The translations under genes were made by a program, and so were the position numbers. From positions 4,464,001 through 4,528,000 of the forward strand of contig NZ_CP107899.1 in the NCBI RefSeq assembly GCF_036013915.1: a stretch of DNA of 64,000 nt, given 5' to 3'. The notes beneath the pieces were generated by a model that had not been told where the DNA came from, made no database searches, and saw only the letters and a program-made list of their open reading frames with translations. Source of the DNA: Streptomyces sp. NBC_00464. Its GTDB lineage: Bacteria > Actinomycetota > Actinomycetes > Streptomycetales > Streptomycetaceae. Positions 10,609 to 53,021 of the stretch are shown here, in pieces. Position 1 is the first letter of the stretch. Each line of letters begins with the position of its first letter.

Positions 10609-13176
10609 GTGGCGGGCGAGTCCCCCGACAAGTCGGAGCAGCAGAAGTCGTCGGGAACGACTCGGAGCGAGGCCGATCCGCGGCTTGCCGTGTTCCGCGA
10701 ACCCGCCTCTCCGGCGGAGTCCGGAGGCGGTGTGGACACGGCGACGGCTGTTTTCCGCACGCAGCGGTCCGCGCCGGAGGCGGAGGACGCCGAGGGCGGT
10801 GCCGAGGATGGGGCCGAGAGCGGTGCCGTGGACGAGGGTGCGGCGGATGCGGATGCGGATGCCGGTGTCGTCGAGGGTGACGCGGTCGACGAGGCCGCTT
10901 CGAGTGGCTCCGCCGAGACCGATGAGGTGACCGCTCAGGAGCCCGAGGAAGGCCCCGAGGAAGGCCCTGAGGGCCCGGTGGAGGCCTCTGTGGCCGATCT
11001 GGGCGCCGTGGAGGCCCCCGAGGCGTCCGAGGGGCCGGTGGAGCCTGCGGAGCCCGTGGAGGGGGCAGAGCCCGCCGGTGCCGACGAGCCTGCCGCGTCC
11101 GAGGAGCCCGAGCCCGCTGAGCCCGAGGAGGCTGCTGAGCCCGAGGGGGCTGCTGAGCCCGAGGGGGCTGCTGAGCCCGAGGAGGCTGTCGAGCCCGAGG
11201 AGGCTGTCGAGCCCGAGGAGGCTGCCGAGCCCGATCCGGCTGCCGAGCCCGAGGGGGGCGACGCGCGGTTGCGTGCAGCCGTTGCCGCATGGGTGTCCAA
11301 GAGCGACGAGGCGAAGGGCGACGGGAAGAGTGATGCGCCCCGTGCCGAGCCTGAGCTCGATGCCGGGTCCGAGTCCGCTCCCGAGTCCGCTCCCGAGTCC
11401 GACGATGCCTCCGCTGCGGAGCCGGACGGTGGCGACGAGCAGCCTGCTGACGAGTCCCCTGCCGAGGATTCCTCTGTCGACGAGTCCGACGAGTCCGACG
11501 AGTCCGACGAGTCAGGCGATTCCGGCGACTCCGACTCCGGCGAATCCGACGACGCGGCGCAGCCCGCCGAGGACGAGCGCGGAATCGATCAGGCGACGGC
11601 CGTCTTCAAGGCGCCGAAGCTGCCCCGCGTCGACCAGCCCACGACCGCGCTGAAGATCACCCCGCCACCGGCGGAGTCGAAGCCCGGGACCGGGGCCCGG
11701 CCGGAGTCCCCTGCCGAGCGGACCAGCAAGTTCGTCCCGTTGCGGGCGGACGACGTACGCCCGGCCCCCGCACCCCCCGCCCCCCGCGCGCCGGAGGCAC
11801 CCGCACCTGAACCCGCAGCCGGTGCCGGTCGGCAGCAGCCCGACGCGTCGCTCAGCGGCGCCGAGCGGACCCGGCAGCAGCCGATGCCGCCCAGGCCGCC
11901 GCTCGATCTGCTGGCCGAGCTGACGAACACCCCGCCGCCGGCGGAGACCCCGGTCCGCACGGCCGTGCGCCGGGTCAAGATCTGGACCCCGCTGGTCCTC
12001 CTGCTGCTGATCGTGTTTGCGATCGTGCAGATGGTGCGTCCGTTGCCGACCCCCGTGCTCACGATGACGGCGGAGTCGTCGTACACCTTCAAGGGCGGCG
12101 ATCTGAACCTCTCCTGGCCGGAGCAGGGGCAGTCGGCGGTCACCGTGGACGGTGTCGGCTCGCTCGGTTCGGCGGGGGCGCAGAAGCCGGCGCCCATCGC
12201 CAGCGTCGCCAAGATCATGACGGCGTACGTGGTGCTCAAGGAGCACCCGCTCACCGGCAAGGAGCAGGGCGAGAAGATCACCGTCGATCAGCAGGCCGAG
12301 GACGAGTCCAAGCTCGATGACGAGTCCACCGCGCCGATCAGCAAGGGGCAGCAGTTCACCGAGAAGCAGCTGCTGCAACTCCTGATGATCCCCTCCGGGA
12401 ACAACGCCGCGCGCCTCTTCGCCCGCTGGGACTCCTCCGAGACCGAGTTCGTCGCGAAGATGAACGCCGCGGCCAAGGACCTCGGGATGACCGGCACCAC
12501 GTACACGGACCCGAGCGGTCTGAAGAAGACGACGGTCTCCACCGCTGTCGACCAGCTGAAGCTGGCCAGGGCCGTGATGCAGAACGAGGTGCTCCGGGAG
12601 ATCGTGGACACTCCGCAGATCCAGATCGAGGGCGTCGACGGGACGATCTACAACAACAACTCGATCCTGCTGCAGCCGGGTGTGAGCGGCATCAAGACCG
12701 GCTCCTCCACGCCGGCCGGCGGCAACCTCGTCTGGTCGGCCAACACGGTCGTGGACGGCAAGAAGCTCTGGATCTACGGTGCGGTCATGGGGCAGCAGGC
12801 GGGCACCGGGCAGCCGTACGACAGCCTGGTGATGTCGCTGAACAACAGCCTCAAGCTGATCCAGGACGCACAGAAGGCCGTGACGTCCGCCACGGTCGTG
12901 AAGAAGGGCGATGTCGTCGGATACGTCGACGACGGCTTCGGCGGCCGCACTCCGCTGGTCGCGACCGGTGACCTCAAGGCGAAGGGCTGGCCGGGCCTCA
13001 AGGTCGAGCTGTCCGTGCAGGGCAACGGCGAGGAGATCTCGCGCAGCATGAAGGCGGGCACGAAGGTCGGCGTGGTGACGGTGGGGACGGGCCCCGGCAA
13101 GGTCAGCGCCCCGGTCGCCCTCCAGGAGGATCTGAAGGACCCGGCCTTCGGCCAGAAGCTGACCCGGATCGGCTGA
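10609..13176 (+). CDS. D-alanyl-D-alanine carboxypeptidase with long acidic cytoplasmic N-terminus
   Basis: 855 residues from GTG at 10609, which follows GGAGGAGG with 5-nt spacing; upstream in-frame ATGs lack such a site. Residues 1-450 are a low-complexity Glu/Pro/Ala/Asp/Ser region. A single membrane helix (WTPLVLLLLIVFAIVQMV) lies near residue 465. The extracellular S11 penicillin-binding domain has all three catalytic motifs: SVAK (SxxK), SGN (SxN) and KTGSSTPAGGN (KTG). It should trim the terminal D-Ala of peptidoglycan stem peptides. The short repeat (V/Q)DxATAVF appears twice in the N-terminal region, perhaps a docking motif. A terminator follows. Confidence 0.9.
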   Translation: MAGESPDKSEQQKSSGTTRSEADPRLAVFREPASPAESGGGVDTATAVFRTQRSAPEAEDAEGGAEDGAESGAVDEGAADADADAGVVEGDAVDEAASSGSAETDEVTAQEPEEGPEEGPEGPVEASVADLGAVEAPEASEGPVEPAEPVEGAEPAGADEPAASEEPEPAEPEEAAEPEGAAEPEGAAEPEEAVEPEEAVEPEEAAEPDPAAEPEGGDARLRAAVAAWVSKSDEAKGDGKSDAPRAEPELDAGSESAPESAPESDDASAAEPDGGDEQPADESPAEDSSVDESDESDESDESGDSGDSDSGESDDAAQPAEDERGIDQATAVFKAPKLPRVDQPTTALKITPPPAESKPGTGARPESPAERTSKFVPLRADDVRPAPAPPAPRAPEAPAPEPAAGAGRQQPDASLSGAERTRQQPMPPRPPLDLLAELTNTPPPAETPVRTAVRRVKIWTPLVLLLLIVFAIVQMVRPLPTPVLTMTAESSYTFKGGDLNLSWPEQGQSAVTVDGVGSLGSAGAQKPAPIASVAKIMTAYVVLKEHPLTGKEQGEKITVDQQAEDESKLDDESTAPISKGQQFTEKQLLQLLMIPSGNNAARLFARWDSSETEFVAKMNAAAKDLGMTGTTYTDPSGLKKTTVSTAVDQLKLARAVMQNEVLREIVDTPQIQIEGVDGTIYNNNSILLQPGVSGIKTGSSTPAGGNLVWSANTVVDGKKLWIYGAVMGQQAGTGQPYDSLVMSLNNSLKLIQDAQKAVTSATVVKKGDVVGYVDDGFGGRTPLVATGDLKAKGWPGLKVELSVQGNGEEISRSMKAGTKVGVVTVGTGPGKVSAPVALQEDLKDPAFGQKLTRIG
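11100..11262 (+). repeat. in-frame Glu-Pro-Glu repeats inside the carboxypeptidase gene
   Basis: Imperfect 18-bp units read GAGCCCGAGGAGGCTGYY or with GGGG, coding for repeats of the EPEEAV/EPEGAA type. They keep the reading frame and lie in the cytoplasmic acidic region. Length variation between strains is likely. Confidence 0.8.
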
Positions 13177-13204
13177 GGCTCCGCACAGGCCGGTGCGCAC
13201 CTGA

Positions 13205-13237
13205 GGTGCCCTGCGGGATCCGCTTCCGCAGGGCACC
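13205..13237 (+). terminator. intrinsic terminator after the carboxypeptidase gene
   Basis: A perfect 12-bp stem (13205-13216 with 13226-13237) with a 9-nt loop, 29 bp after the stop codon. Confidence 0.8.
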
Positions 13238-13434
13238 GTCGCCGTCCGGTGCGCTGCGGAGGTGCGAGCCACCTCACGGGCCCTCGCGGGCCTTATTCGG
13301 GGCGGCGACGAGAATGTGCGTGTTAGCGTCCCGGGGGCAACGCGTGGACCCTGGAACGCGTCTTCCCGCCCATGAGACCCGAGCAGGCAAGCCGGCGGTT
13401 CCAACGCGTCCGGGGAGGGACGGGGAGAGTCGCA

Positions 13435-36800: not shown

Positions 36801-37595
36801 TCAGTCGGCGTTCAGGCGGCCGAAACGGCGTACGGCGATCCACAGGGCGACCACGGTCAGGGCCACCAGGTAGGCCACTTCCAGCAGTTGGGCCACACCC
36901 ACCCGGCCCAGGCACAGCGCCCTGATCAGTTCATTGGACGCGTACAGGGGCGAGACCTTGACCAGGTAGCCGATGGCCGCAGGGTAGGCAGAGGCCGGGA
37001 AGAACGTGCCGCTCGCCAGGAACAGCACCAGCGTGCCGAACCGGACGGGATCGAGATCCTGCCAGCTGCGCATCACGGTCGATATCGCGACGCCGATGGC
37101 CGCGAAGGCGAATCCCACCAACAGGGCGGCCGGCACGGTGAGTACGGCCCACGGGGATCTGAGACCACCGCAGATGCCGATGACCACCAGCATCACGACC
37201 GCGTAGACCGCACCCCGGATCTGGGCCCAGATGATCTCGCCGACGACGATGCCCTCGATGTTCATCGGGGCGGACAGGAGCTGCTTGTAGAGGCGTCGGT
37301 ACCGCAGCTTCCAGAAGAAGTTCACGGTCGAGTCGTACAGGGCTCCGTTCATGGCGGAGGTCGCCATCAGGGCCGGAGCGAAGTAGGCGAGATACGGCAC
37401 CGTCTCGTCGCCCACCTTCACGGGCCCGAGCAGTGAGCCGAGACCGAGGCCGATGGACAGCAGGAAGAGGATCGGTTCGATCATGCCCGACAGCAGGGTC
37501 GACCAGTTCTTCCGGGAGACGAGGTAGTTCCGCTCGACGACCGCGCCGACATCCGTGAGAATCGCTGATCTCCGCGTGAGTATCGCTGACTTCAT
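36801..37595 (-). CDS. ABC-2 type export permease 1
   Basis: 264 residues from ATG at 37595, which overlaps the upstream permease stop as ATGA. Six hydrophobic spans, and the middle motif RRLYKQLLSAPMNIEGIVVG is the characteristic cytoplasmic loop of DrrB/NodJ-like ABC-2 exporters. The late ASGTFFPASAYP and SPLYASNELIRALCLG segments match the family's final helices. It pairs with the next permease and the ATPase to form a drug- or product-type exporter. An upstream frame extension to 37952 is an artefact. Confidence 0.9.
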   Translation of the reverse strand: MKSAILTRRSAILTDVGAVVERNYLVSRKNWSTLLSGMIEPILFLLSIGLGLGSLLGPVKVGDETVPYLAYFAPALMATSAMNGALYDSTVNFFWKLRYRRLYKQLLSAPMNIEGIVVGEIIWAQIRGAVYAVVMLVVIGICGGLRSPWAVLTVPAALLVGFAFAAIGVAISTVMRSWQDLDPVRFGTLVLFLASGTFFPASAYPAAIGYLVKVSPLYASNELIRALCLGRVGVAQLLEVAYLVALTVVALWIAVRRFGRLNAD

Positions 37596-38368
37596 AGGGT
37601 CAATCGCCTCTTGAATACGCGCTCGGCCGCGACCAGCCCCAGCAGCAGGTAACACCCGAGAACCAACAGATGCAGCAGCGTGTGTGTCACGTCCGGGCGG
37701 CCCGTCATCAACTGCCGGCAGAGTTCCGCCCCGTTCCACAGCGGCGTCACGGAGATGACCCACCGCAGCGCCGTCGGGAAGACCGTCACGGGATAGAAGA
37801 TTCCGGAGAACAGGAACATCGGCGTCACGACAAGGCGCGTGAGCGTCGTGAGGCTCGCGTCCCGCATGATCGCGGCCGAGAACGCGAGGATGGGCGCGCC
37901 GCACGCCATACCGGTGAGCACCGCCACGAAGAGCGCGGCGATCGCCCACCACGAGGTGACGATCCCGAGGACCCCCATGACCGACAGGAAGATCGCGCAG
38001 TTGATGGTGATGCGCAGCGCGATGAAGGCCAAGTGCCCCGCGTAAGCGCCCCGGTAGCCCAGCGGGGAGGCCGCCATGCCGTGATACGTACGGTCCATGC
38101 GCATGGCGGTGGCGACCGGGTACGCCGACACCTCGGCCGCGGTCTGCAGCGCCCAGCCGGCCAGCAGACCGGGGGCGACGAACGCGACGTAGTCGACGCC
38201 CTGGGAGCCGACCTCGACCTGCAGATCGAAGCTCGCGCCGATGCCGAGCCCGAGTGTCGCCAGATAGAGCAGGGGCGCGAGTACGGAGCTGGTGAGCGTG
38301 CCTCGCCAGGTGCGGCGGTACTGGAGCAGCCAGTGCTCGCTGGTGACAAGTATCGAAGGCATCGTCAC
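37592..38368 (-). CDS. ABC-2 type export permease 2
   Basis: 258 residues. The GTG at 38368 overlaps the ATPase stop as GTGA, supporting coupling; an ATG lies 6 nt further in. Six hydrophobic spans. The cytoplasmic loop DRTYHGMAASPLGYRGAYAG and the late FLFSGIFYPVTVFPTALRWV are typical of DrrB-like permeases. Two non-identical permeases with one ATPase suggest a heterodimeric membrane domain. Self-resistance by export of the cluster product is the natural inference. Confidence 0.9.
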   Translation of the reverse strand: MTMPSILVTSEHWLLQYRRTWRGTLTSSVLAPLLYLATLGLGIGASFDLQVEVGSQGVDYVAFVAPGLLAGWALQTAAEVSAYPVATAMRMDRTYHGMAASPLGYRGAYAGHLAFIALRITINCAIFLSVMGVLGIVTSWWAIAALFVAVLTGMACGAPILAFSAAIMRDASLTTLTRLVVTPMFLFSGIFYPVTVFPTALRWVISVTPLWNGAELCRQLMTGRPDVTHTLLHLLVLGCYLLLGLVAAERVFKRRLTL

Positions 38369-39318
38369 CCCGTCAGACTGCGGCCGCTGAGCCGCAGGAA
38401 CACGTCTTCCAGCGAGCCGCGCCGGACCAGGCAGTTCCTGGGGTCGATGCCGAGGCCGATCACCTGGCGCAGGGCGAGGTCACCGTCGTCGACATACAGC
38501 AGGAGCCGGTTGGGAAGCCGTTCCGTGCGCTTGCCGACCTTGCCGGCCAGCTCTTCCAGTGCGGGCACGTCCTCTTCGCCGCTCGCGCGGATCTCCACGA
38601 CGTCCTTGGAGGCATAGCGGGTGATGAGGTCCTGTGGTGCGCCCTCGTCCTTGATGCGGCCCTCGTCCATGAGCAGGATCCGGTTGCACAGCTGCTCCGC
38701 CTCGTCCATGAAGTGCGTCGTCACGATCAAGGTGACGCCGCGCTTCTTCAGCATCGCGAGCCGGTCCCAGAGCATGTGCCGGGCCTGGGGGTCGAGACCG
38801 GTGGTGGGCTCGTCGAGCAGCAGCACGTCCGGCTTGCTGACCAGGGCGCGGGCGATGCTCAGACGGCGCTTCATTCCACCGGAGAGAGTCTCGACGCGGG
38901 CGTCCGCACGGTCCGACAGCTTGGCGAACTCCAGCAGTTCGGCACTGGTCTCACGAATCACCGCACGGGGTATGCCGAAGTACCTGCCGTAGATGTGGAT
39001 GTTCTCGGCAACGGTCAGCTCGGAATCGAGGATGTCCTCCTGGTGCACGATGCCCAGCCGTCGGCGGATGTCGCGGCTCTGCTTCGCGGCGTTCAGACCG
39101 AAGACGCTCAGCGAGCCGGCCGACGGGAGGGAGACACAGCTCAGCATGCGCATGAGTGAGGTCTTGCCTGCACCGTTGGGCCCGAGGAATCCCACGGCCT
39201 CACCGGCCCGGATGTCCAGGTCCACCGCGTCGACGGCCGTCGGTCCTCCGTAGGACTTGGTGAGGCCCCGGGCATGGACGACCGGCGCCTGCTGTGCCGA
39301 GGGCGGCGCCTGCGTCAT
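38365..39318 (-). CDS. ABC exporter ATPase (DrrA/NodI-like)
   Basis: 317 residues from ATG at 39318 with GGGGAGA upstream. Walker A GPNGAGKTSL, signature LSGGMKRRLSIARAL, Walker B LLLDEPTTGLDP and the switch His in VTTHFMDEAEQ are all present. The final 85 residues form the extra C-terminal domain seen in DrrA-type ATPases. It drives the two permeases encoded directly downstream with overlapping stop/start codons, and follows ATP-grasp ligase 2. It powers export of the product, giving the producer resistance. Confidence 0.95.
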   Translation of the reverse strand: MTQAPPSAQQAPVVHARGLTKSYGGPTAVDAVDLDIRAGEAVGFLGPNGAGKTSLMRMLSCVSLPSAGSLSVFGLNAAKQSRDIRRRLGIVHQEDILDSELTVAENIHIYGRYFGIPRAVIRETSAELLEFAKLSDRADARVETLSGGMKRRLSIARALVSKPDVLLLDEPTTGLDPQARHMLWDRLAMLKKRGVTLIVTTHFMDEAEQLCNRILLMDEGRIKDEGAPQDLITRYASKDVVEIRASGEEDVPALEELAGKVGKRTERLPNRLLLYVDDGDLALRQVIGLGIDPRNCLVRRGSLEDVFLRLSGRSLTG

Positions 39319-39381: not shown

Positions 39382-40674
39382 TCAGCGGATGAGACCGGCA
39401 ACGTCGGGCTCGATCTTCATCGCGTCCTCCGCCCAGCGGACGACACGCTCCATTTCGGCCGCCAGCCCCTGGTACGTGGGACTCGTCAGCGTGACGTCGC
39501 CGATGGTGTCGAACCAGCTCGTCGGCATGGGGAGAGTCGCACCGGGGACCATCCCCTGGGGCAGGACGAGCTTGAGAACGGAGGGGAGTTCACAGCCCTC
39601 CGGCAGTGCCACCACCTTGCCCGAGCGGTACGGCAGGCCGAACCCGGCCACCGGCCGGATGTTCTCCTTGCCGACGAAACCCAGCTGTTCCGGCTTCATG
39701 CCGGTGGCGAGCCCGAGGCACAGCTTGTCGGGCATGAGACCGGTGGCCGCGCCGATATTGGTCATGGTGAAGTGCCCGCCGGTGCGCGAGGCGACCTCGT
39801 TCAGGTACAGCCTGCCGTCCGCATCGCCCCACACCTCGGCGTGGAACGAGGACGTCCGGGCGGTGGGCAGACTCGCCACGACCGCCTCGATGAATTCCAC
39901 CAGACGCCGCCCGATATCCGATGACGGGTCGAGCATGATGGAACCGAAGGAGCCGACGTGTTCCCCCACGGCCCGCCCGGTCCCGAATCCGTAGTACTGC
40001 GACGGAATGAGGTAGAGGAATTCTCCGTCGTGGCGGACTCCGTCGACGTGATACATCACGGAGCCCGCCATCGGCTCGATGACGTAACGTGCCGGCATAT
40101 CGGCGGAAAGTCGGCCGAAGCAGTTCGACGCGGCCTTTCGGGCGCCGTCCTCGTCATAGACGAAGGCTGCTGTCTCGCCGGCCCAGGCGGACCGGGACTT
40201 GAAGGCGAACGGATATCCCAGTTCGTCGACGGCATTCCAGAAATCGACTGCGTCGTCAACCCGGTGGGAAGGCCAGACGTCGAGTCCGGCGGCGGCCACC
40301 CGTCGCTTCATATCGAGTTTGTCGCGGTAGGCCCATGCGCTCTCGACGCTCTGGCCTTCGATATCGAATTTCTCGCGAAGGCGTGCGGCTCGCACGATAT
40401 CGCCCTCTCGGGGGGCGAATACGAGGTCGTAAGCGGATTCCCTGAGCAATTCGGAGACCCGGCGCTCGACGGCGCCCGGAGTGTAGTAGTCGGGCACTTC
40501 CACGAGGAGCTCGACCTCGTCCGGAACACCGTTGGCGAACCGGTCCCGCACGCCCTCCCTGGTCAGCACGGTCAGACTCAGGTCGCCATGCCGACGGGCG
40601 ACGTCGGCGAAGTCCGCGATCATGGAGGCGTTGACGTCCAACGACAGGGCACATTCCAGAACGAGAACCCGCAC
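39382..40674 (-). CDS. ATP-grasp ligase 2
   Basis: 430 residues from GTG at 40674, chosen because GGAGGA lies 6 nt upstream; an ATG at 40704 lacks such a site. The core shows YRDKLDMKRRVAAAGLDVWP, K159 in FAFKSRSAW, and metal-binding E280 in SSFHAEVWG and E293 in LYLNEVASRTGG. The order matches the ATP-grasp fold of amino acid ligases. The Asn of the usual ExN triad is replaced by Ser in NEVAS. It is the first gene of the operon, and its sequence differs enough from ligase 1 to suggest different substrates. Two ligases allow two successive amide bonds. Confidence 0.86.
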   Translation of the reverse strand: MRVLVLECALSLDVNASMIADFADVARRHGDLSLTVLTREGVRDRFANGVPDEVELLVEVPDYYTPGAVERRVSELLRESAYDLVFAPREGDIVRAARLREKFDIEGQSVESAWAYRDKLDMKRRVAAAGLDVWPSHRVDDAVDFWNAVDELGYPFAFKSRSAWAGETAAFVYDEDGARKAASNCFGRLSADMPARYVIEPMAGSVMYHVDGVRHDGEFLYLIPSQYYGFGTGRAVGEHVGSFGSIMLDPSSDIGRRLVEFIEAVVASLPTARTSSFHAEVWGDADGRLYLNEVASRTGGHFTMTNIGAATGLMPDKLCLGLATGMKPEQLGFVGKENIRPVAGFGLPYRSGKVVALPEGCELPSVLKLVLPQGMVPGATLPMPTSWFDTIGDVTLTSPTYQGLAAEMERVVRWAEDAMKIEPDVAGLIR

Positions 40675-41009
40675 CGAGCTTCCTCCACATGATCGGTCGT
40701 TCACTGCCGACCTTGACGCGCCGGTCAGTGCCCTTTATCCCATCACGCAAGTGAATCAATCAGTAGTGACAGTTTCTTGGGGGAGACGTAAGCACGCTTT
40801 ACGGCAGATCGGCCGGGCCGTCGTAGGCGGGATCCCCGGCCGGCACGCTCGGGTAATTTCTGGCGATTTTGGTTGTATGTCCAATTTCGCATCCGTGAAT
40901 CCTCGAAAGTGTGTGCCAGGAGGATCGCCTTCTTTCGGGCCGGTTTCACTATGCGAGACGGCGTAGCAGGGCCCGGCGACAGAAGGGCGCAGGAGTATAT
41001 GCTCCCAGT
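40675..41009. promoter_or_regulatory. divergent promoter region between the ligase/exporter operon and homoserine dehydrogenase gene
   Basis: 335 bp of relatively AT-rich DNA separate the two divergent starts, so the promoters for the six-gene operon and for the homoserine dehydrogenase gene must lie here. I could not identify a confident operator, attenuator or leader peptide. Confidence 0.5.
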
Positions 41010-42305
41010 ATGTATCGTTGCGTAAACGTGGGCATGCTGGGTTGCGGCAATGTCGGTGCGACTTTTGCCGAATTCCTCTTGAGCCGGGCTCCGGAAATCC
41101 AGGAAATCAATGGCATCGATCTCCGCCTCACGCGTATCGCCGTACGCGATGCGGGGAAGAAGCGTCCGGGGATGCTGGCCCCGCTCATCACCGAAGACGT
41201 GCAGGCGGTCACCCAGGCCGACGACGTCGACGTGGTGGTCGAGGTAATGGGCGGTATCGAGCCCGCCCGCACCTATGTGCTCGCCGCGCTCCGCGCCGGC
41301 AAGCCGGTCGTCACCGCCAACAAGGAACTGATCGCCAAGTGCGGCCCCGAGCTGTACGCGGCGGCCGATGCCACCGGCGTCGACCTCTTCTTCGAGACAG
41401 CCGCCGTCGCGTCCGTACCGATCCTTCGCATCCTCAGGGAATCCTTCCTGGGCGAGGACATCACCAGCGTCCTGGGCATCGTCAACGGCACGTCGAACTA
41501 CATGCTGACGCGTATGGCCGAAGAGGGGCTCAGCTATTCCGAGGCCCTGAGCCTGGCGCAGGAGGAGGGTTACGCCGAGCCCGACCCGTCGAACGACGTG
41601 AACGGCGCGGACTCCGCGTCGAAGCTGGCCATCCTCGCCTCGCTCGCCTTCAAGCGCGCGATCGCCGTCGACGACGTCGAGCGGGAAGGGATCGAGACGC
41701 TTGAGCGCGAGGACTTCGATATCGCCGCGCGCTTCGGATACGTGATCAAGTCGATCGCCAAGGCCGATGTGTTCGAGGCGGTCGGCTCCGGCAAGCGCGA
41801 GATCGGCATCCAGGTCTTCCCGGCCCTGGTGGACAAGAACCACGCCCTCGCCAACGTGCGCAACACGTACAACGCCGTGTTCCTCCGGGGAAGCGCGGCC
41901 GGCGACCAGATGTTCTACGGCCACGGAGCGGGGCGCCTGCCCTCCGCGTCCGCCCTCCTCGGTGACCTGGTCACCGCGGCGGACCATCTGCGACGCGCCA
42001 CCCACCGGGTGGTCCCGCTGGGCAGTGCCGCGGTGCTGCGGTCCACGGAACGGCTGGTGCACCCCCACTACCTCAAGCTGGAGGTCATCGACGCGCCGGG
42101 CGTCCTCTCCGAGGTGTCGGGCGTGCTGGGCCACCACGGGGTTTCCATCCGTTCCATCACCCAGGAGGACCACGCCTCGAAGGCCCGGGTCGTCTTCATC
42201 ACGCACCGCGCCGAGGAGGGTGCGATGAAGAAGGCCGTCGAGGAACTCCGCGGTCTGGAGAGCGTCCTGGGCGTCAGCAGTATGCTCCGCATCGTGGAGA
42301 TGTGA
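41010..42305 (+). CDS. hom: homoserine dehydrogenase with ACT domain (cluster-associated copy)
   Basis: 431 residues from ATG at 41010 with AGGAG 14 nt upstream; the frame extends further back without a better start. NAD(P) motif VGMLGCGNVGATF near residue 10, TANKELIAK with K105, VNGTSNYML, and the catalytic segment DVNGADSASKLAILA with K205. The ACT regulatory domain spans about 352-425 (LKLEVIDAPGVLSEVSGVLG). It reduces aspartate semialdehyde to homoserine, the branch point to threonine and methionine. No thrC or thrB is adjacent, unlike housekeeping loci. In this context it may supply threonine or homoserine, or be a resistant copy of a target enzyme. Confidence 0.95.
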   Translation: MYRCVNVGMLGCGNVGATFAEFLLSRAPEIQEINGIDLRLTRIAVRDAGKKRPGMLAPLITEDVQAVTQADDVDVVVEVMGGIEPARTYVLAALRAGKPVVTANKELIAKCGPELYAAADATGVDLFFETAAVASVPILRILRESFLGEDITSVLGIVNGTSNYMLTRMAEEGLSYSEALSLAQEEGYAEPDPSNDVNGADSASKLAILASLAFKRAIAVDDVEREGIETLEREDFDIAARFGYVIKSIAKADVFEAVGSGKREIGIQVFPALVDKNHALANVRNTYNAVFLRGSAAGDQMFYGHGAGRLPSASALLGDLVTAADHLRRATHRVVPLGSAAVLRSTERLVHPHYLKLEVIDAPGVLSEVSGVLGHHGVSIRSITQEDHASKARVVFITHRAEEGAMKKAVEELRGLESVLGVSSMLRIVEM

Positions 42306-42431
42306 GCCCCGGATGTGAGCTCGGGACGTGAGCCCCGGATGTGAGCTCGGGACGTGAGCCCCGGATGTGAGCTCGGGACCTGAGCCCCGGATGTGAGCTC
42401 GGGACCTGAGCCCCGGATGTGAGCTCGGGAC
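42302..42431. repeat. tandem repeat, five 26-bp units
   Basis: Five nearly identical 26-bp units (GTGAGCCCCGGATG followed by TGAGCTCGGGAC; units 4 and 5 begin with C) plus a partial sixth. The homoserine dehydrogenase stop codon lies within the first unit. Each unit contains the imperfect inverted pair AGCCCCGG and CCGAGCTC-like sequence. Confidence 0.95.
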
Positions 42432-42434
42432 CTG

Positions 42435-42482
42435 AGCCCCGGGCTGCCGCCGTCGGCCGGTCCGGCCTGCGGTCCCGGGGCT
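42435..42482. terminator. bidirectional terminator between homoserine dehydrogenase and EamA genes
   Basis: An outer 9-bp stem AGCCCCGGG (42435-42443) with CCCGGGGCT (42474-42482), and an inner GGCCGG/CCGGCC hairpin, between convergent genes. Confidence 0.7.
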
Positions 42483-42488
42483 GATCCC

Positions 42489-43463
42489 TCAGCGGGCCGA
42501 GCCCTCCTCCAGTCGTTCCGAGGGCTCGCGGACCTCCGGCGGGGGTGCGTCCGCAGCCGGGCGCGGGCGGGCCGCCCGCAAGGTGCCGTGGGCCGCCATG
42601 ATGCCGGCGATGACCAGGACCGCTCCGAGCGGCTGGTTCCAGGTCAGCTTCTCGCCGAGCAGGATCACGCCCGCGGTGACGCCCACGACGGGCGTGAGAT
42701 AGGTGACCGCCGAGGCGTTCACCGCGCCCCACGCCTGCACGATGTTGTTGTTCCACAGGTAGGCGAGGCCGGTGCTCAGGCCCCCCAGCGCCAGCATGCT
42801 CACCACGACGCCCGTGCTCGCGTGCGGTACGGGTGTCGCCAGCCACGGCGTCGCCACCAGCATGATCAGCGCGCCGATGGTGACCTGTACGAAGGCGACG
42901 CTCACCGCCGGGAGCCCCAGCGGGGTGATGCAGCGGCGCAGATAGACGAAGGCGAAGCCGTAGCAGGTGGTGGCTCCCAGACAGGCGACCTCGGCCTTGA
43001 GGTGACCGCCCCCTGACAGGCTCCCGGGACCGATCAGCACCAGCACACCGACGAATCCCGCGAGCAGGCCCGCGGTCCGGCGACGGGTCAGGCGCTCGTC
43101 CCTCAGCGCGGCCGTACCGACGGCCAGAGTGAGCAGCGGAGTGGTGGCGTTGAGGATGCTCGCCATGCCGGAGGTGAGGTGCTGCTCCGCCCAGGAGAAC
43201 AGCAGGAACGGCACGACACACAGCAGTACGGCCACGACGGTGAGATGCAGCCACACCCCCCACTTCCATGGCACCCGGCTTCGGGTCACCACCATCACGG
43301 CGCCGAGCGCCACCGCGCCCAGCACCAGGCGGCCCCAGACGACCTGAGCTGGCGTCAGGTCGTCCAGGGCAATCTTGATGAACAGGAAACTCGAACCCCA
43401 TGCGCACGCCAGCGCGCAGAACTGGGCCACGGTCTTCGCTCGCACGGCACCCCCGAGGCTCAC
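42489..43463 (-). CDS. EamA-family (DMT) transporter
   Basis: 324 residues with ten hydrophobic spans arranged as two EamA repeats. ACAWGSSFLFIKIALDDLTP is the classical first helix, ILNATTPLLTLAVGTAALRD ends repeat one, and NASAVTYLTPVVGVTAGVIL ends repeat two. Members such as RhtA and YdeD export amino acids like threonine, homoserine and cysteine. It lies 7 bp after the tRNA deacylase gene and is the last gene of the SHMT-like/aldolase/deacylase operon. Export of the unusual amino acid is the likely job. GTG 43463 is used; GTG 43445 with GGGGG upstream is an alternative. Confidence 0.92.
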   Translation of the reverse strand: MSLGGAVRAKTVAQFCALACAWGSSFLFIKIALDDLTPAQVVWGRLVLGAVALGAVMVVTRSRVPWKWGVWLHLTVVAVLLCVVPFLLFSWAEQHLTSGMASILNATTPLLTLAVGTAALRDERLTRRRTAGLLAGFVGVLVLIGPGSLSGGGHLKAEVACLGATTCYGFAFVYLRRCITPLGLPAVSVAFVQVTIGALIMLVATPWLATPVPHASTGVVVSMLALGGLSTGLAYLWNNNIVQAWGAVNASAVTYLTPVVGVTAGVILLGEKLTWNQPLGAVLVIAGIMAAHGTLRAARPRPAADAPPPEVREPSERLEEGSAR

Positions 43464-43470
43464 CCGGCTG

Positions 43471-43953
43471 CTACCGCGGGTCCGCGGCGATCGGCGCCAC
43501 GATCGGCGCGACGATCCTCACGTAGTCCTCGGTGGCCATGACGACGGACCGGTCCAACCGGCCCGCGTTGAAGGCGATTTCCTTGTGTGCGGAGAGGAAG
43601 TCGGCATCGGCGACCACGGGAAGCCCACCGGAGAGCCACAGCGGCGGGATGGCACCGACCACACAGCCGGTGAGCTCCTCGGCCAGCTCCGACGGCGCGA
43701 ATCCGCCTTTGCGCCCCTCGACCGCGGCGACGACCTTCTTGAGGTCCGCGCGCCGGTCGCCCGCCAGCACCGCGAGCACGGCGGCGGAGTCGATTCCCTT
43801 CACCCGGCAGACCAGCGCCTTGGCGCCCTGCGACACCTCCGTGCCACGCACGCCGGACACCTCCTCGGAGCGGCCCTCGGCCGGGTGCTCCACCACGCGG
43901 AACGTGGCCTCCTCGCGTTCAAGGATGCCGATGATCTGCTCAAAGGGACTCAA
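43471..43953 (-). CDS. YbaK/ProX-type aminoacyl-tRNA deacylase
   Basis: 160 residues from TTG at 43953, which overlaps the aldolase stop as TTGA and has GGAGG 6 nt upstream. The domain is complete: FRVVEHPAEGRSEEVSGVRG, QGAKALVCRVKG with the conserved Lys (K45), ADLKKVVAAV, GCVVGAIPPLWL and AFNAGRLDRSVVMATEDYVR. Free-standing proteins of this family hydrolyse mischarged tRNA in trans (Cys/Ala-tRNAPro and related editing). Encoded in the same operon as amino acid-making enzymes and an exporter, it most likely removes the pathway amino acid from tRNA, protecting the proteome. The longer frame to 44121 overlaps the aldolase and is rejected. Confidence 0.9.
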   Translation of the reverse strand: MSPFEQIIGILEREEATFRVVEHPAEGRSEEVSGVRGTEVSQGAKALVCRVKGIDSAAVLAVLAGDRRADLKKVVAAVEGRKGGFAPSELAEELTGCVVGAIPPLWLSGGLPVVADADFLSAHKEIAFNAGRLDRSVVMATEDYVRIVAPIVAPIAADPR

Positions 43954-45776
43954 TTCCGGCCTCCGAAGGGCTGTGCGGGTGTACGGGTCCGGAGCGGGGC
44001 GGCGTAGCGCTGCTCCAGGCGGCTGACGAAGGTGTCGATGAAGGGCGGTGGCGCATCCGTCCAGGACCGCCAGTCGCGGGTCACCTCGGCAAGGTACGAC
44101 ATGCGCCGCAGGTGCAGCCAAGTGCCGTCACCCGTTAGGGATCTGAGGTCCACGGGGAGATGGGCGCGCAGCGCTTCGAGATAGTCGGCGAAGACATCGC
44201 TGCCGAAGTTCACCCGGGCGACCCCGTGCGCCCGCAGGGACGTCAGGTCGACCTTCGTCAGGGAGCTGCCGCCGTGCACGACAAGGCTCCGGCCGGAGTT
44301 CTCCAGGACCTTGGTGAAGGCCCGTACGAGCCCGTGATCGACGGCGGCATGCCGGTGCCCCCGTGCGGGTTCCGTGGCGAAGATGCCGTCCCACAGCCCG
44401 GTCTTGCGCTGTGCCTTCTCCAGGCGCTGCTCCAGCCACTTCGTCTCCAGCTCCTGCAGCAGCGGGTGCTGGAAGGCCGGGACGCTCGCGCGGGCCTCGC
44501 ACAGGACTGTGTCGAGCCGCTGTCCTGCATCGGGTCCCTCGACGTCCATCGCCCGGCGGACCATGGACGCGATCAGCCGGTGCTCGGCGGAGTACGCGGG
44601 CAGCCCGGCGGCCGTGAGGGACTGCTCGACCTGCGCGCACGCGGCGGCGAAGGCATGCAGATCGTCCCCGCCCGCGCTGTCCGACAGCAGGTCGATCTCG
44701 GCCAGCGACCGGCGGGTGGCGGCGAATCCGTAGTCGAAGCTGTGGAACTGGCCCACATGGGCCCCGATGAAATCGAGATCCGTGTCTTCGACGAAGCGCA
44801 CGAAGTCGGGCAGGGGAGTCTTCGACCACTTCCGCAGCCCGGCCCCGTCGATGCAGCCGATCTCACCCTCGACGAGTACGTCGTAGCGGCGCGCCAGTTC
44901 CGTGGCCGTGTTCGTGAACAGGACGTTCTGGTGCAGGGCGCGCCCGGAGCCGTCGACCATGACCGAGTCGAAGCCCGCCTCGCAGGCGGCGCGGACGACC
45001 TCGTAGTCGTCGGCGTGATCGAGGTGCAGCCGAAGGCGCGAGCCGAGGGCGGAGTTGAGCCGGTCCACGTCCTGCCGCAGCCGGCGGAAGACCTCGGCGA
45101 CGGTGGAGACCGGCTCGCGGCCCGCGCTGTCCGCGACGAAGAGCAGGGCCTCCTGCGGCGAGATCTCGCAGTACACCTCCTGCGAGGTGCGTGCGGAGAG
45201 CAAGGCGTACGGCAGCAGCATCGACGGGTGCTTCACGTTGAAGTTCGGCACGGCGCCGGTCCAGCGTGCGGGGCGGGTGCCGGCGGACGCGACGCTGCGG
45301 TGCGGGACCGCGGAGTGCCGGTTGCGCAGTTCCCAGTGGAATTCGCGCCGTACGCGCTGCACCTCGTCGACGAAGGCGTTCAGATCCGTGTCGCCGGGGG
45401 ACAGGGTGCGCACCAGCGGGCCCAGGGCACTCGGATCCAGCGCCCGGGGGTCCTCGACGGCGAAGACGACGCCGAGATGCGGGTCGTGGCGACGCAGCTC
45501 CTCCGCACGGCGTGCCGCCCAGGCCAGCGCGGCCAGGCCGCTGACGGGGAGCTCCTCGCACACGAAGGCCACCGACTGGGCGGCGAGCGTTTCGAGGACC
45601 CGCTCCGGCGTCAGCCGGTCGTCGGCGAGGACGGTACGCAGCGCGAGCCGCTCCAGCTGCTGCCGGGCCCACTCCGTGTTCCAGACGTCCATGCCGATGA
45701 CGGCGTGCGGGGTGTCGGTCCGGCGGCGCAGCGCATCGCTGCCGGGCAGGGGAAGGGCAGGGTGCACCGGAATCAT
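43950..45776 (-). CDS. class II fructose-bisphosphate aldolase-like protein, enlarged
   Basis: 608 residues, against about 290-360 for normal class II aldolases. Residues 1-170 are an added domain of unknown type. The aldolase-like TIM barrel begins about residue 175 (VPNFNVKHPSMLLPYALLSA). Metal and catalytic residues are visible: D253-H254 in LHLDHADD, E304 in VEGEIGCIDG, H340 in FIGAHVGQFH, H501 in LVVHGGSSLTKVD, and N523 in RVNFGSDVF. Between H340 and H501 is an insertion of over 100 residues. It should catalyse zinc-dependent aldol chemistry, perhaps releasing or using an aldehyde for the coupled SHMT-like enzyme. ATG at 45776 overlaps that gene's stop. Confidence 0.82.
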   Translation of the reverse strand: MIPVHPALPLPGSDALRRRTDTPHAVIGMDVWNTEWARQQLERLALRTVLADDRLTPERVLETLAAQSVAFVCEELPVSGLAALAWAARRAEELRRHDPHLGVVFAVEDPRALDPSALGPLVRTLSPGDTDLNAFVDEVQRVRREFHWELRNRHSAVPHRSVASAGTRPARWTGAVPNFNVKHPSMLLPYALLSARTSQEVYCEISPQEALLFVADSAGREPVSTVAEVFRRLRQDVDRLNSALGSRLRLHLDHADDYEVVRAACEAGFDSVMVDGSGRALHQNVLFTNTATELARRYDVLVEGEIGCIDGAGLRKWSKTPLPDFVRFVEDTDLDFIGAHVGQFHSFDYGFAATRRSLAEIDLLSDSAGGDDLHAFAAACAQVEQSLTAAGLPAYSAEHRLIASMVRRAMDVEGPDAGQRLDTVLCEARASVPAFQHPLLQELETKWLEQRLEKAQRKTGLWDGIFATEPARGHRHAAVDHGLVRAFTKVLENSGRSLVVHGGSSLTKVDLTSLRAHGVARVNFGSDVFADYLEALRAHLPVDLRSLTGDGTWLHLRRMSYLAEVTRDWRSWTDAPPPFIDTFVSRLEQRYAAPLRTRTPAQPFGGRN

Positions 45777-47212
45777 CGGAACACCTCGCCGAGCAGGCGG
45801 GCCGCCGCCGGTGAACCGATGTGGTCGTCGAAGGAGTAGGCGAGCCGGTCGAGGGTGAAGTTCTGGAGCAGATGCGCCACTTCGGTGCGGACCGCCGTCG
45901 GCTCCGCCCGCCGCAGCACCACTCTGGCCACCAGCCGGGCCACTTCCCGCATCTCCGCCTCACGCAGTCCGCGGCGGGTCATCGCCTGCACGCCGAGCCT
46001 GAGGCCGTGCAGACCGTTGCTGCCGGGTACCTCGATGTTGGTGGTACGGATTCCGGCGCGCGCCAGGTCACCCAGTGCCAGCGCCAGCGCGTCGGAGGCG
46101 CACCCGGTGATGATGTGGACCTGATGGGTTTCCGTGAATCCGAAGGATTCCCCGGATACCCGGACGCCCTCCTCGTGCAGTGTGCCGGCGAGTGCCTTGG
46201 CGTTGGCGAGTATCTGCCGTGCGTAGTCGTGTCCGTAGAGGGCGATTTCGGACAGGGCCACATACATGGGCGCGATCAGTTCGGCATGGGAATTGCTCTG
46301 CATCTGCGGGCAGATCCAGTCCGAAACGGACTTCAGCTTCGGATGGTCCGCGTCGCGGAAAGCGACATAGGCCTTCTGCGGTCCCGGGATGGTCTTGTGG
46401 GTGTTGCCATGAATGGCGTCCGCGCCGAGCAGCGTCGGCTGCGGCAGGGCGCCGCCCGCTATCAGGGCGCCGTCGTGACTTGCGTCATAGGCGAGGAAAA
46501 CGCCTTCGGGAAGCGCGGCGCGGATCTGCGCCAGCGGCTGCCACCGCAGTTTGAAGGACTGGTCGAGGATGACGAGCTTGATCTCCGGATGTTCTGCCAC
46601 CAGGACGGCCAGCCGGTCCACGTCGACGAGGAGGGTCCGGTCCACCATCGGCAGGTGGTAGGTGTTGATGCCCGCCGCGCCGGCCAGCGACTCCAGGGCG
46701 AAATGGCCACCGTCCTTGTGCGCGAAGTGCACGAAGCCGTCGCCGCGTGCACAGGTGCCCAGCAGGACGCCCTGCTCCGCGACGGAGCCGCCGTTGGGCC
46801 GCCAGTCGAAGGTCGCCGCCTCGAAGAGCTGCTGGCCGAGGCCCGTCAGCTTCGCCACCAGCGACGCGTTGGCGCCCGAGTCCGGGAAGGACCATTCGCC
46901 GGGCTCGGAGGCGTACGGCGGAGCGAACTCGTAGAAGCTGCCCTGCAGTCCGCCACCCAGCATGCGAACCAGCTTGCTCGGGTAGTTCTCGCTGGCCGTG
47001 AGGCTCAGGTGCTGCTCGCGGTAGGTGTTGTCCAGTACGAAGTCCGAGGTGAGCCGCTCCAGCATGTGCGCCACCCGGTCGACCGACCACGCCTCCCCGG
47101 CCGGGACCGCGTCGGTCCTCTCCGCGATTTCCCGACCGTCACTTCTTGTCACCCCGTCGATGATGCCTTCCGCCTCGTCGACAATCCCTTGGGCACTCTC
47201 CGTCGCACGCAT
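45773..47212 (-). CDS. SHMT-like PLP enzyme, candidate threonine aldolase/transaldolase
   Basis: 479 residues. Fold-type I SHMT motifs in order: HLSLTASENYPS at about 69 (SHMT: LIASEN), NGGSVAEQGVLLG at about 140, YDASHDGALIAGG with D243/H246 over the PLP ring, and IHGNTHKTIPGPQKA with Schiff-base K273. The post-Lys loop reads PGPQ, not the RGPRGG of housekeeping SHMT. To my knowledge this resembles threonine transaldolases of natural-product pathways; this is an inference. It would join glycine (from threonine or serine) to an aldehyde, giving a beta-hydroxy-alpha-amino acid. An N-terminal extension of about 45 residues is unusual. First gene of the four-gene operon. Confidence 0.85.
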   Translation of the reverse strand: MRATESAQGIVDEAEGIIDGVTRSDGREIAERTDAVPAGEAWSVDRVAHMLERLTSDFVLDNTYREQHLSLTASENYPSKLVRMLGGGLQGSFYEFAPPYASEPGEWSFPDSGANASLVAKLTGLGQQLFEAATFDWRPNGGSVAEQGVLLGTCARGDGFVHFAHKDGGHFALESLAGAAGINTYHLPMVDRTLLVDVDRLAVLVAEHPEIKLVILDQSFKLRWQPLAQIRAALPEGVFLAYDASHDGALIAGGALPQPTLLGADAIHGNTHKTIPGPQKAYVAFRDADHPKLKSVSDWICPQMQSNSHAELIAPMYVALSEIALYGHDYARQILANAKALAGTLHEEGVRVSGESFGFTETHQVHIITGCASDALALALGDLARAGIRTTNIEVPGSNGLHGLRLGVQAMTRRGLREAEMREVARLVARVVLRRAEPTAVRTEVAHLLQNFTLDRLAYSFDDHIGSPAAARLLGEVFR

Positions 47213-47661
47213 GTATGAAGCCCCCGTTCATTGATCGCTCATTTATCGCTCGTAATCGCCGCGCCCGGTTCGGCAGCAGGGCGGCAGAAGTCGATTGGAG
47301 GGGAGGCGGCTACGTCGGCGCACGGCTCTGTGCGCGGACGGAAGATTCTGTTCTGCCTCCGCGTCCCCCGGTCCTGCGGTGATAGGCCTCGGGATACCAG
47401 GGCCTACCAGCGTTGCAGACCCTACAAGGTATGGATCAGCCACAGTCGATGAGATCAAGCCGTTGATTAGGGCCCTTTCTCGCCTTACTCGAAGCGGTGA
47501 CCGGCAATTGCCGGCAGAGTCCGCAGGTCCGCGTCGACCTGCGGGGAGCAGCGCACAGGGGCCGGGGCCGTACCCCCGCTCCCGACATCTGCACCCGTTA
47601 TGGATCTGGCCTGATACCGATCACCGAGCCGGCGGGGCTCGGGCGATCGGAGTGTTCGGCT
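47213..47661. other. intergenic region upstream of the SHMT-like operon
   Basis: About 450 bp with no convincing gene. It should contain the promoter of the SHMT-like/aldolase/deacylase/EamA operon. The first 30 bp upstream of the ATG are AT-rich with GGGGG as a possible ribosome site. I see no recognisable riboswitch or leader peptide. Confidence 0.5.
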
Positions 47662-47693
47662 CCGCTGCGCCCCGTCCGGACGGGGCGCAGCGG
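47662..47693 (-). terminator. terminator of the amino acid importer operon
   Basis: A 32-bp perfect palindrome (CCGCTGCGCCCCGTCC and its complement) 8 bp past the stop of the substrate-binding protein gene. Confidence 0.75.
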
Positions 47694-47700
47694 CGGGGTG

Positions 47701-48675
47701 TCAGGACTTGGGGATGCCCGGCGGGTTGATCTCCGACTTCTGCAGAGCCTCCGCCTGCAGCCCCCATCTCTTGAGGACCTTCGTGTAAGTCCCGTCGGCC
47801 ATCACGGCGTTGAGGGCCTTGGCGAGGGGCCCGGCCAGGCCGTTGCCCTTGCGGACGGTGCCGCCGATCCGGCCCTCCAGGCCGCCGCCGCTGCTGGAGA
47901 ACGTGCCGATCACTTTGGTCTTGCCGCTGGCGACGGCGTGATAGGCGCCCGCCGGGCCGGGGCCGAGGTAGGCGTCGACCCTGCCGGAGCCGAGCGCCAG
48001 GTAGTAGTCGGCGGGGTTCTGGAAGTTCTTCACGGTCACGGGCTTGCGCTTCTTGGCGCGGTTCTCCCGGTCCCATGTCCGGAGCAGCTGTTCCTGGTTC
48101 GTGCCGGGGGTCACCGCGATGGTCCGGCCGGCGACGTCCTCGGGGCCACGCACGGTCCAGTCCGCGTCCCGGGGTGCCTCGAAGGCGACCTCGTCGGCAC
48201 GGTAGGTCGCGAAGTCGTACTTCTCCTTGCGCTCCTCGGTCACCGTCACATTGGTCATGGCGAGCTCGTACTTGCCGCTGTCCAGGCCGATGAAGATGTT
48301 CTCCCACGACACGGTGTGGAAGCGGGGCTTCAGGCCGAGCACGTCCGCGACCAGGGTCGCCAGATCGGGCTCCGCGCCGATCACCGTCCGGTTGTCGTTC
48401 GCGTAGAAGCTCAGTGGCGGTTCGGTGCCGGCCAGATTGACGATGTCGAGGACACCGTCCTTGCGGACGGACTCGGGTACCGAGCCGGCGATGGCCGCCA
48501 CCCGCTCGGCACGCACCCGGTTCTGATCGGCCGTCAGATTCATCCGGGTGCCGTCGGCTGCCTTCGCCGGGGGTGCGTCCTTCCCGGACTCGGGGTCCGC
48601 GCAGCCGGCGACGGCGAGGGCGAGGCAACAGGAGAGTGCGGTGAGGGCGGCGGCGCGCCCGGGGACGTGTCTCAT
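47701..48675 (-). CDS. amino acid ABC importer, substrate-binding lipoprotein
   Basis: 324 residues from ATG at 48675, with AGGGA about 7 nt upstream; 48714 is a longer alternative. The signal peptide ends in the lipobox LAVAGCAD. The mature protein is a family 3 solute-binding protein: LDIVNLAGTEPPLSFYANDN, VIGAEPDLATLVADVLGLKP, NIFIGLDSGKYELAMTNVTV and VAGRTIAVTPGTNQEQLL. Such proteins bind polar or basic amino acids at the membrane surface. It is the last gene of the leftward operon with the matching ATPase and permease, and ends in a strong palindromic terminator. Confidence 0.92.
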   Translation of the reverse strand: MRHVPGRAAALTALSCCLALAVAGCADPESGKDAPPAKAADGTRMNLTADQNRVRAERVAAIAGSVPESVRKDGVLDIVNLAGTEPPLSFYANDNRTVIGAEPDLATLVADVLGLKPRFHTVSWENIFIGLDSGKYELAMTNVTVTEERKEKYDFATYRADEVAFEAPRDADWTVRGPEDVAGRTIAVTPGTNQEQLLRTWDRENRAKKRKPVTVKNFQNPADYYLALGSGRVDAYLGPGPAGAYHAVASGKTKVIGTFSSSGGGLEGRIGGTVRKGNGLAGPLAKALNAVMADGTYTKVLKRWGLQAEALQKSEINPPGIPKS

Positions 48676-51918: not shown

Positions 51919-52707
51919 TCAGGCCCAGGTGACGGCGTAGTCGAGCAGGTCGTCCCGGAAGCCGAGGGAGAACTCCACCGTGACGAGTTCGCCCGTGGAG
52001 ACGGGGGTGATCCGGTGGTACCAGTCCGGGTTGAAGAGGATGACGTCACCGTCGCGAGGGGCGTACCGGTCGGTGTGCGCTCCCTCCACGACGGACTCGG
52101 CGCAGCCGGCGCCGTCCGCGGTGCGGTGGGCTTCGTCGCCCGGCTCCCAGGCGCGGTCGTGCACGAGCAGTTCGCCGCCGTCGGCAGCGCTGTCCGCGAC
52201 GACCACGCACTGAAGCTGGTAGGCGAGGTAGGTGAGCGCGATGTTGGTGCCGTCGCCCTCGCGCATGATGTTGTGGCTGGCGAGCCACGAGGCCGACTCC
52301 GGGGTACGGGCCCGGAGCACGGCCTCGCCGAAGGCGCCCTCGCCGTCCTCGACGGCCACCTCGACGGAGCTGAGCCCGAAGGACTCCCGCAGGGCCTCTC
52401 GCGCCCGGGCCTGCAGGTCGAAGCCCGCCCGGTCCAGCGCCTCGCGGGCCTGGTCGGCGCGCTCGTGGTAGGAGTCGGTCTCGTCGAGGAAGTCGGTGAG
52501 CGGAGCCCCCAACAGCTGCGCGGTGTCCGCGTCGACGAGCAGTTTCCGGATCCGGGCCGCCTGGTCGGCGACGTAATCGGCCGGGAAGAGATTGCGCAGA
52601 ACGACGACAGCCGTATCGCCATTGGTCAAGTGGCGTAGCGACTCGAACTGTGCGTGCTCGTCCCGCGTATCGATGACAGTGGGTTTCCAGTCCTGAGCAG
52701 TCGGCAT
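51919..52707 (-). CDS. putative 2-oxoglutarate/Fe(II) oxygenase-like protein
   Basis: 262 residues from ATG at 52707, with AAGGAGA 8 nt upstream. The C-terminal half has a double-stranded beta-helix pattern: ALTYLAYQLQCVVVADSAAD, GGELLVHDRAW, GDVILFNPDWYHRITPV and LVTVEFSLGF. The second metal His (YHR) and the 2OG-side strand are clear. The first HxD is not: the best candidate is SHNIMREGD, so iron binding is uncertain. Proteins of this shape hydroxylate amino acids in several pathways. It is the first gene of the importer operon and divergent from a PIG-L deacetylase. Confidence 0.65.
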   Translation of the reverse strand: MPTAQDWKPTVIDTRDEHAQFESLRHLTNGDTAVVVLRNLFPADYVADQAARIRKLLVDADTAQLLGAPLTDFLDETDSYHERADQAREALDRAGFDLQARAREALRESFGLSSVEVAVEDGEGAFGEAVLRARTPESASWLASHNIMREGDGTNIALTYLAYQLQCVVVADSAADGGELLVHDRAWEPGDEAHRTADGAGCAESVVEGAHTDRYAPRDGDVILFNPDWYHRITPVSTGELVTVEFSLGFRDDLLDYAVTWA

Positions 52708-53021
52708 ACGCCGGTCTCCTTGTGCGTAGTGTCCGTGTGCAGGAGATTTCAGTAAGCAAGAGACTGCGGCCCGGGCAGTCACGCCAGCACGGACTCCATT
52801 CACTGGAATTCCAAAGGATCTGGTTCCGGAAATGGCGCGAAGGCACGTGACGCGGTGGCGCAGCCTGGTGAACTTACCTGGCCGACACCCATCGGTGTCA
52901 ACGATCGATCTCAGCATATGAGTTGCGTACCGAAAGGGGATCTGATGGCTGTAGTCGATGTTTACTTAAGTCTTCGCGGCGGGCTTATGCCGAAGATCGT
53001 GTGCGGGCTAGTGTGAAACGT
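52708..53021. other. divergent intergenic region
   Basis: 314 bp between the oxygenase-like and PIG-L genes. Lower GC than its surroundings, as expected for promoters. No gene or distinctive operator found. Confidence 0.5.

Follow-up and report, generated by a model that had tools for sequence, protein, structure and literature searches.

A four-gene Streptomyces operon on an ObiH-lineage transaldolase: the fluorothreonine-type arrangement in a new form

The closest described relative of the operon treated here is the fth locus of Streptomyces cattleya. It encodes a fluorothreonine transaldolase (FTase), a PLP enzyme working on L-threonine, together with the deacylase FthB, which prevents mistranslation, and FthC, which exports fluorothreonine (PMC7408626, PMC7162832); in a review FthB is described as related to ProXp-ST1 (PMC11295145). 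A second transaldolase of interest is ObiH (ObaG) of the obafluorin system, the enzyme in PDB entry 7k34, for which Y55, E107, H131, D204, K234 and R366 are named as active-site residues (PMC10495429). Immunity to obafluorin is ascribed to a resistant ThrRS, ObaO (PMC9854587). The E. coli protein YeaK (ProXp-ST1), a member of the INS superfamily, is a general Ser/Thr editor. The canavanyl-tRNA deacylase CtdA is, like the deacylase discussed below, a stand-alone editing enzyme which is linked genetically to the metabolism of a toxic amino acid analogue (PMC10018355), but it has the B3/4 domain fold, serves degradation and not synthesis, and deals with an arginine analogue.

The operon described here is a fluorothreonine-type arrangement in a new form, resting on a transaldolase of the ObiH lineage. 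It was found in a chromosomal stretch of 64,000 nucleotides from Streptomyces sp. NBC_00464 (this whole stretch is called the window), where four genes lie head to tail and leftward at 47212-42489 (-) (Table 1). A first-pass annotation made from the letters alone had described four leftward genes joined by ATGA, TTGA and a 7-bp gap, and this is borne out by the frames and the coordinates. A scan for promoters and terminators found none, and Rfam gave no match on 47000-47800. Most likely the operon produces a threonine-like beta-hydroxy amino acid, exports it and has it cleared from tRNA by editing; we infer both the product and the tRNA that would be charged with it.

Table 1. Genes and junctions of the operon, in window positions
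Feature	Position	Strand	Remarks
L-threonine transaldolase (TTA), gene 1	47212-45773	(-)	479 aa, ATG start, SHMT fold, PLP lysine K273
Class II aldolase (FBP/tagatose-bisphosphate-type), enlarged, gene 2	45776-43950	(-)	608 aa, ATG start
FthB/ProXp-ST1-type trans-editing aminoacyl-tRNA deacylase (predicted), gene 3	43953-43471	(-)	160 aa, TTG start, K45
EamA (DMT superfamily) transporter, probable exporter, gene 4	43463-42489	(-)	324 aa, GTG start
ATGA start/stop overlap, TTA to aldolase	45773-45776	(-)	RTGA at the same join in 8/8 other loci
TTGA start/stop overlap, aldolase to deacylase	43950-43953	(-)	TTGA at the same join in 8/8 other loci
7-bp gap, deacylase to EamA	43464-43470	(-)	

Judged by its sequence, gene 1 is an ObiH-lineage L-threonine transaldolase and not a housekeeping glyA. 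The protein matches the Pfam SHMT family (1.1e-19), and its best solved relative is PDB 7k34 with 510.7 bits, the next best giving 144.8; it is about 53% identical to ObiH. All six active-site residues of ObiH are kept in the alignment as Y94, E146, H170, D243, K273 and R405, in the order given above, and K273, the lysine already singled out from the letters, is thus the counterpart of K234. The genome contains three other SHMT genes which score 418-533 bits against the SHMT profile, where TTA reaches only 70.8. The first-pass annotation had proposed a phylogeny as a check. The tree, built from 46 proteins, puts the genome's own three GlyAs on one side (100/100) and the window TTA inside a set of 18 rows (99/99), near the ObiH-type clade (100/100). 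Two rows in it, the fluorothreonine transaldolase and an Arsenophonus protein, are long branches of unsure placement. The tree and the three other SHMT genes rule out housekeeping GlyA as the identity of gene 1. Two findings had been named beforehand as evidence against a specialised enzyme, namely clustering with GlyA and the lack of another glyA in the genome; both are excluded, since the protein is ObiH-like by residues, score and tree and three further SHMT genes are present.

The close homology and the intact active site argue for a transaldol type of reaction. Gene 1 is predicted to work like the fluorothreonine transaldolase, yet it is not a member of TIGR04506, the model of that enzyme: the score is 162.8 bits, and no TTA match lies over the cut-off of 650 bits. 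When plasmids were searched with TTA the best matches came from Arsenophonus, at 31-33% identity. One TTA-like protein (L041 7013-8290) lies on a 20-kb plasmid of this insect symbiont and is adjoined by genes for a phytanoyl-CoA dioxygenase and a threonine aldolase. Among viral contigs there were 12 stretches with the pattern, and no relative among them.

By sequence comparison gene 3 belongs with FthB and ProXp-ST1, and it would accordingly be expected to deacylate tRNA. It matches Pfam tRNA_edit (2.2e-22), is 48% identical to YeaK over 88% of its length and 40% identical to S. cattleya FthB over 158 residues, and K45, pointed out in the first-pass annotation, is the same residue in all 12 aligned deacylase sequences. 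These comparisons were run on 43950-43471, one codon short of the TTG start. In a tree of 44 rows YeaK, FthB and the window deacylase stand together, apart from YbaK of E. coli and the YbaK orthologue of the genome itself (94/94, a split which is not starred and has long outgroup branches; the tree includes L030, whose two stop codons were treated as gaps). The YbaK model TIGR00011 has a cut-off of 153.25 bits, which is reached neither by the window deacylase (49.8) nor by FthB (46.1) or YeaK (45.5), and the true YbaK of the genome is a separate gene, 55% identical to that of E. coli. Score and tree together rule out YbaK membership. The earlier proposal was a fluorothreonine-like set of transaldolase, trans-editing deacylase and exporter in which the deacylase, taken to be of YbaK type, belonged to another editing family than FthB. 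The core of this proposal holds for the families, the linkage and the kinship to FthB; the different editing family was wrong, as the 40% identity and the common YeaK/ProXp-ST1 side of the tree make clear, and the main idea gains because the deacylase belongs to the FthB family.

The S. cattleya homologue used here lies divergently beside the fluorothreonine transaldolase gene (1207 bits against TIGR04506, cut-off 650), followed by an EamA gene, and from position and literature the two are taken to be fthB and fthC. The fth locus and the window operon have in common a PLP transaldolase, predicted in the window case to act on L-threonine, a trans deacylase of the same family and an adjacent EamA gene. 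They differ in their enzymes: the TTA of the fth locus, FTase, is a distant one and carries a fused PF00596 domain, whereas that of the window is of ObiH type and has a PF01116 aldolase beside it as a protein of its own. No similarity is detectable between the EamA proteins, and the first-pass annotation saw no fluorinase in the window. The window deacylase belongs to the INS superfamily like YeaK and is set apart from it by the translational coupling of its gene to a transaldolase operon. One could imagine that the four genes are a housekeeping one-carbon/sugar set in which the deacylase corrects ordinary Ser/Thr mischarging only, and editing of Ser- and Thr-tRNAs is indeed reported for the ProXp-ST1 proteins of ordinary cells (PMC11295145). 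We find this very improbable: TTA is not a GlyA, the genome has other SHMT and tRNA_edit genes, and the cassette is intact in just 3 of 392 Streptomyces genomes, its own included, with one remnant in addition. In genomes from across the phylum TTA is found in 2 of 396, one of them its own.

The aldolase encoded by gene 2 carries the class II aldolase fold, a TIM barrel, and matches Pfam F_bP_aldolase (PF01116) with 3.5e-31. Its metal and catalytic motifs DH, E, H and HGGS are intact and stay unchanged across 11 homologues, whose identity goes down to 48%; beside these motifs there are long extra segments, and the N-terminal segment has a mean pLDDT of 51.1 in the model. No NCBIfam equivalog cut-off is reached, and Z is tied between the FBP, tagatose and sulfofructose-phosphate aldolases. 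The aldolase clusters P0121-P0134 comprise 247 member sequences, 183 of them in a cluster named S. albidoflavus, a species in which the deacylase is also present. The TTA clusters at 82% identity or above have 23 members, none of them named S. albidoflavus (names are given for some proteins only). Some S. albidoflavus strains may therefore have genes 2 and 3 without gene 1 among the clusters listed, which counts against a four-gene unit. Gene 4 is a probable exporter. It contains two EamA repeats (Pfam EamA, 9.3e-38, 130 bits) and matches TIGR00950, a carboxylate/amino acid/amine transporter model, with 2.8e-26, which is below the cut-off of that model. Pairwise comparison with the S. cattleya EamA protein gave no similarity (E 0.71), so the two have only the broad EamA family in common.

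A scan of species genomes gave 15 loci, 8 from Streptomyces and 7 of ObiH type; judged by length, G095 and L009 are the same contig, as are G059 and L012, and each pair was counted once. TTA, aldolase, deacylase and EamA follow each other in the same order in all eight other Streptomyces loci, where both start/stop overlaps are found with an open aldolase frame between them. The seven ObiH-type loci differ in having no aldolase, deacylase or EamA gene within 10 kb of TTA. The flanks differ between the loci, and the window neighbours are not common to the others. The homoserine dehydrogenase, ATP-grasp and ABC genes which flank the operon in the window were considered as members of the unit and rejected, as there is no match to them near the cassette in L005-L012.

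In six of the eight other loci the cassette adjoins genes for PEP mutase, a split phosphonopyruvate/sulfopyruvate decarboxylase, a DmpG-like aldolase, an aminotransferase and ATP-grasp ligases. L011 is a seventh case, with part of this phosphonate set on the other side and reaching the end of the fetched stretch; in L012 the set is absent. The PEP mutase scores 308.9 bits, just under the NCBIfam cut-off of 319.55, and passes the Pfam cut-off. A 605-aa "HprK-related" frame runs over the PEP mutase gene in a different reading frame; due to this overlap its true start must be later, and its empty searches say little. In L043, an S. aureus-type locus, the phosphonate neighbourhood, which here is upstream of the cassette, includes genes for a semialdehyde dehydrogenase and an aspartokinase-like amino acid kinase (11075-13317), and these look like threonine-pathway genes. 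PEP mutase has no match in the genomes G059 and G124 nor in that of the window (G000), and the window cassette is thus independent of PEP mutase. The phosphonate genes were also rejected as a required part of the unit, since at E 1e-15 none is found in the window, L012, L045 or L046.

The reading which we consider reasonably probable is that the operon suffices for the biosynthesis of a threonine-like beta-hydroxy-alpha-amino acid and brings its own protection along. The class II aldolase is the probable aldehyde source, and for its direction and substrate we infer cleavage of a ketose 1-phosphate to DHAP and the aldehyde. The ObiH-type TTA would then move the glycyl unit of L-threonine onto this aldehyde and release acetaldehyde. 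The product would be threonine-like enough to be loaded onto tRNA, from which a deacylase of the FthB/ProXp-ST1 type would clear it, and the EamA protein would export it. Likely products are 4-hydroxythreonine, 2-amino-trihydroxypentanoate or similar compounds; for the copies beside a phosphonate cluster phosphono-threonine is possible, and a product derived from phosphonoacetaldehyde in these copies is a speculation. In the open PMC subset no paper was found on the operon or on transaldol chemistry with phosphonoacetaldehyde.

The same four genes could be read with the aldolase running the other way. To our knowledge acetaldehyde is a co-product of every TTA, and the aldolase might add it to DHAP and so pull the transaldolase forward, the aldehyde for the TTA coming from elsewhere in the cell. 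The intact class II motifs permit synthesis as well as cleavage, and the phosphonopyruvate decarboxylase and PEP mutase of the six loci could supply phosphonoacetaldehyde. We nevertheless hold this version to be unlikely: an aldolase of this kind is absent within 10 kb in all seven ObiH-type loci, and a source of aldehyde from outside the operon is not evident in the window genome, which has no PEP mutase match.

Two decayed copies of the cassette were found, one in G124, where it adjoins a tRNA-Thr gene, and one on a plasmid of Streptomyces sp. NBC_00184. In both, TTA is gone from the examined stretch, only a tail of the aldolase is left and EamA is broken; the deacylase frame is intact. Between each of these deacylases and its closest intact relative the nonsynonymous to synonymous changes are 2:12 (L023/L005) and 8:29 (L029/L011), corresponding to dN/dS values of 0.058 and 0.085 with controls at 0.12-0.18; the values are from ungapped pairs over the first 450 nt, and part of the divergence may predate the decay. 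Pairs with indel differences, namely most of those with L011 or L029 and the pair of the window and L011, gave inflated values of 0.39-0.56 and were set aside. The pattern fits a deacylase kept as an immunity gene after decay of the rest, and recent decay can also account for it. That only this frame is kept could be taken to favour detoxification or self-resistance as the role of the whole operon. TTA would degrade a threonine analogue, either foreign or made by the cluster, with the aldolase consuming the aldehyde and the deacylase and EamA protecting the cell; as phosphonate genes adjoin the cassette in seven of the eight other loci (PEP mutase in six), it could be their immunity set. This is in our opinion quite unlikely, because the window copy has no phosphonate genes, its genome has no PEP mutase match, and transaldolases with the same active site are described as synthetic enzymes (PMC10495429).

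The link between deacylase and transaldolase is supported by the two decayed copies and by other cases in which the two occur together. In the natural fusion protein P0026 the deacylase domain comes first and the TTA second, and on the tree the former groups with FthB (99/97). For four TTA/deacylase pairs of the protein database the longest contig is of exactly the same size in both members (7131, 7679, 15297 and 18608), where 0.46 is expected from shifted lengths; the control used 119 and 117 of 120 listed rows, and equal size is not proof of one contig. The TTA-linked deacylases are scattered on the tree and do not form one clade: there are 7 changes compared to a shuffled mean of 7.6, so a single origin is not indicated. 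The scatter reads as repeated recruitment, or as a mere chance choice from a common family.

As a tentative extension, and with more doubt than confidence, we suggest that the pairing of TTA with an FthB/ProXp-ST1 deacylase is a general strategy against toxic threonine mimics, assembled repeatedly as operon, as neighbours or as fusion. The cassette would then make an undescribed mimic with an aldehyde obtained from sugar phosphate through the enlarged aldolase, the phosphonate-linked copies would maybe make phosphono-threonine, and the deacylase would be retained as an immunity gene after decay. We know of no metabolite pathway except that of fluorothreonine which is widely cited for a producer-protecting trans-acting deacylase. 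With a second case of ObiH lineage, having the deacylase inside the operon, and a natural fusion, genomes could be mined for toxic threonine analogues by the signature "transaldolase next to ProXp-ST1", and if this second instance is true a natural role for otherwise generic editing enzymes would follow.

Some other genes of the window and its genome are mentioned here. At 40911-42305 (+) there is a homoserine dehydrogenase with an ACT domain; the genome has one further copy, to which it is only 42% identical. It could supply threonine, and it is not conserved beside the cassette elsewhere. Between its end and EamA lies a 26-bp tandem repeat at 42303-42442, with 5.4 copies and a 99% match. A divergent ATP-grasp protein with a weak BacD-like match is encoded at 39382-40704 (-), followed by an ABC exporter at 37592-39318 (-); a relative of the ATP-grasp protein, 46% identical, occurs in 1 of 119 other relatives searched. 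The statement of the first-pass annotation that no halogenase is present agrees with what is found at 51919-52917 (-), outside the conserved cassette: a WelO5-family non-heme iron protein with an HxD motif, HTD, which suggests a hydroxylase-like rather than a halogenase-like protein. A HAD protein and an amino acid ABC importer adjoin it. A tRNA-Thr (CGT) gene lies near the cassette or its remnant in L012 (19526-19600) and L023 (362-438), with none in L005-L011, and this tRNA gene is a possible integration site. Finally, the window genome has a second ThrRS (L048, G000:C1:2260844-2262034) which matches model positions 165-562 only; it seems to lack the N-terminal part which in the full-length copy presumably holds the editing domain.
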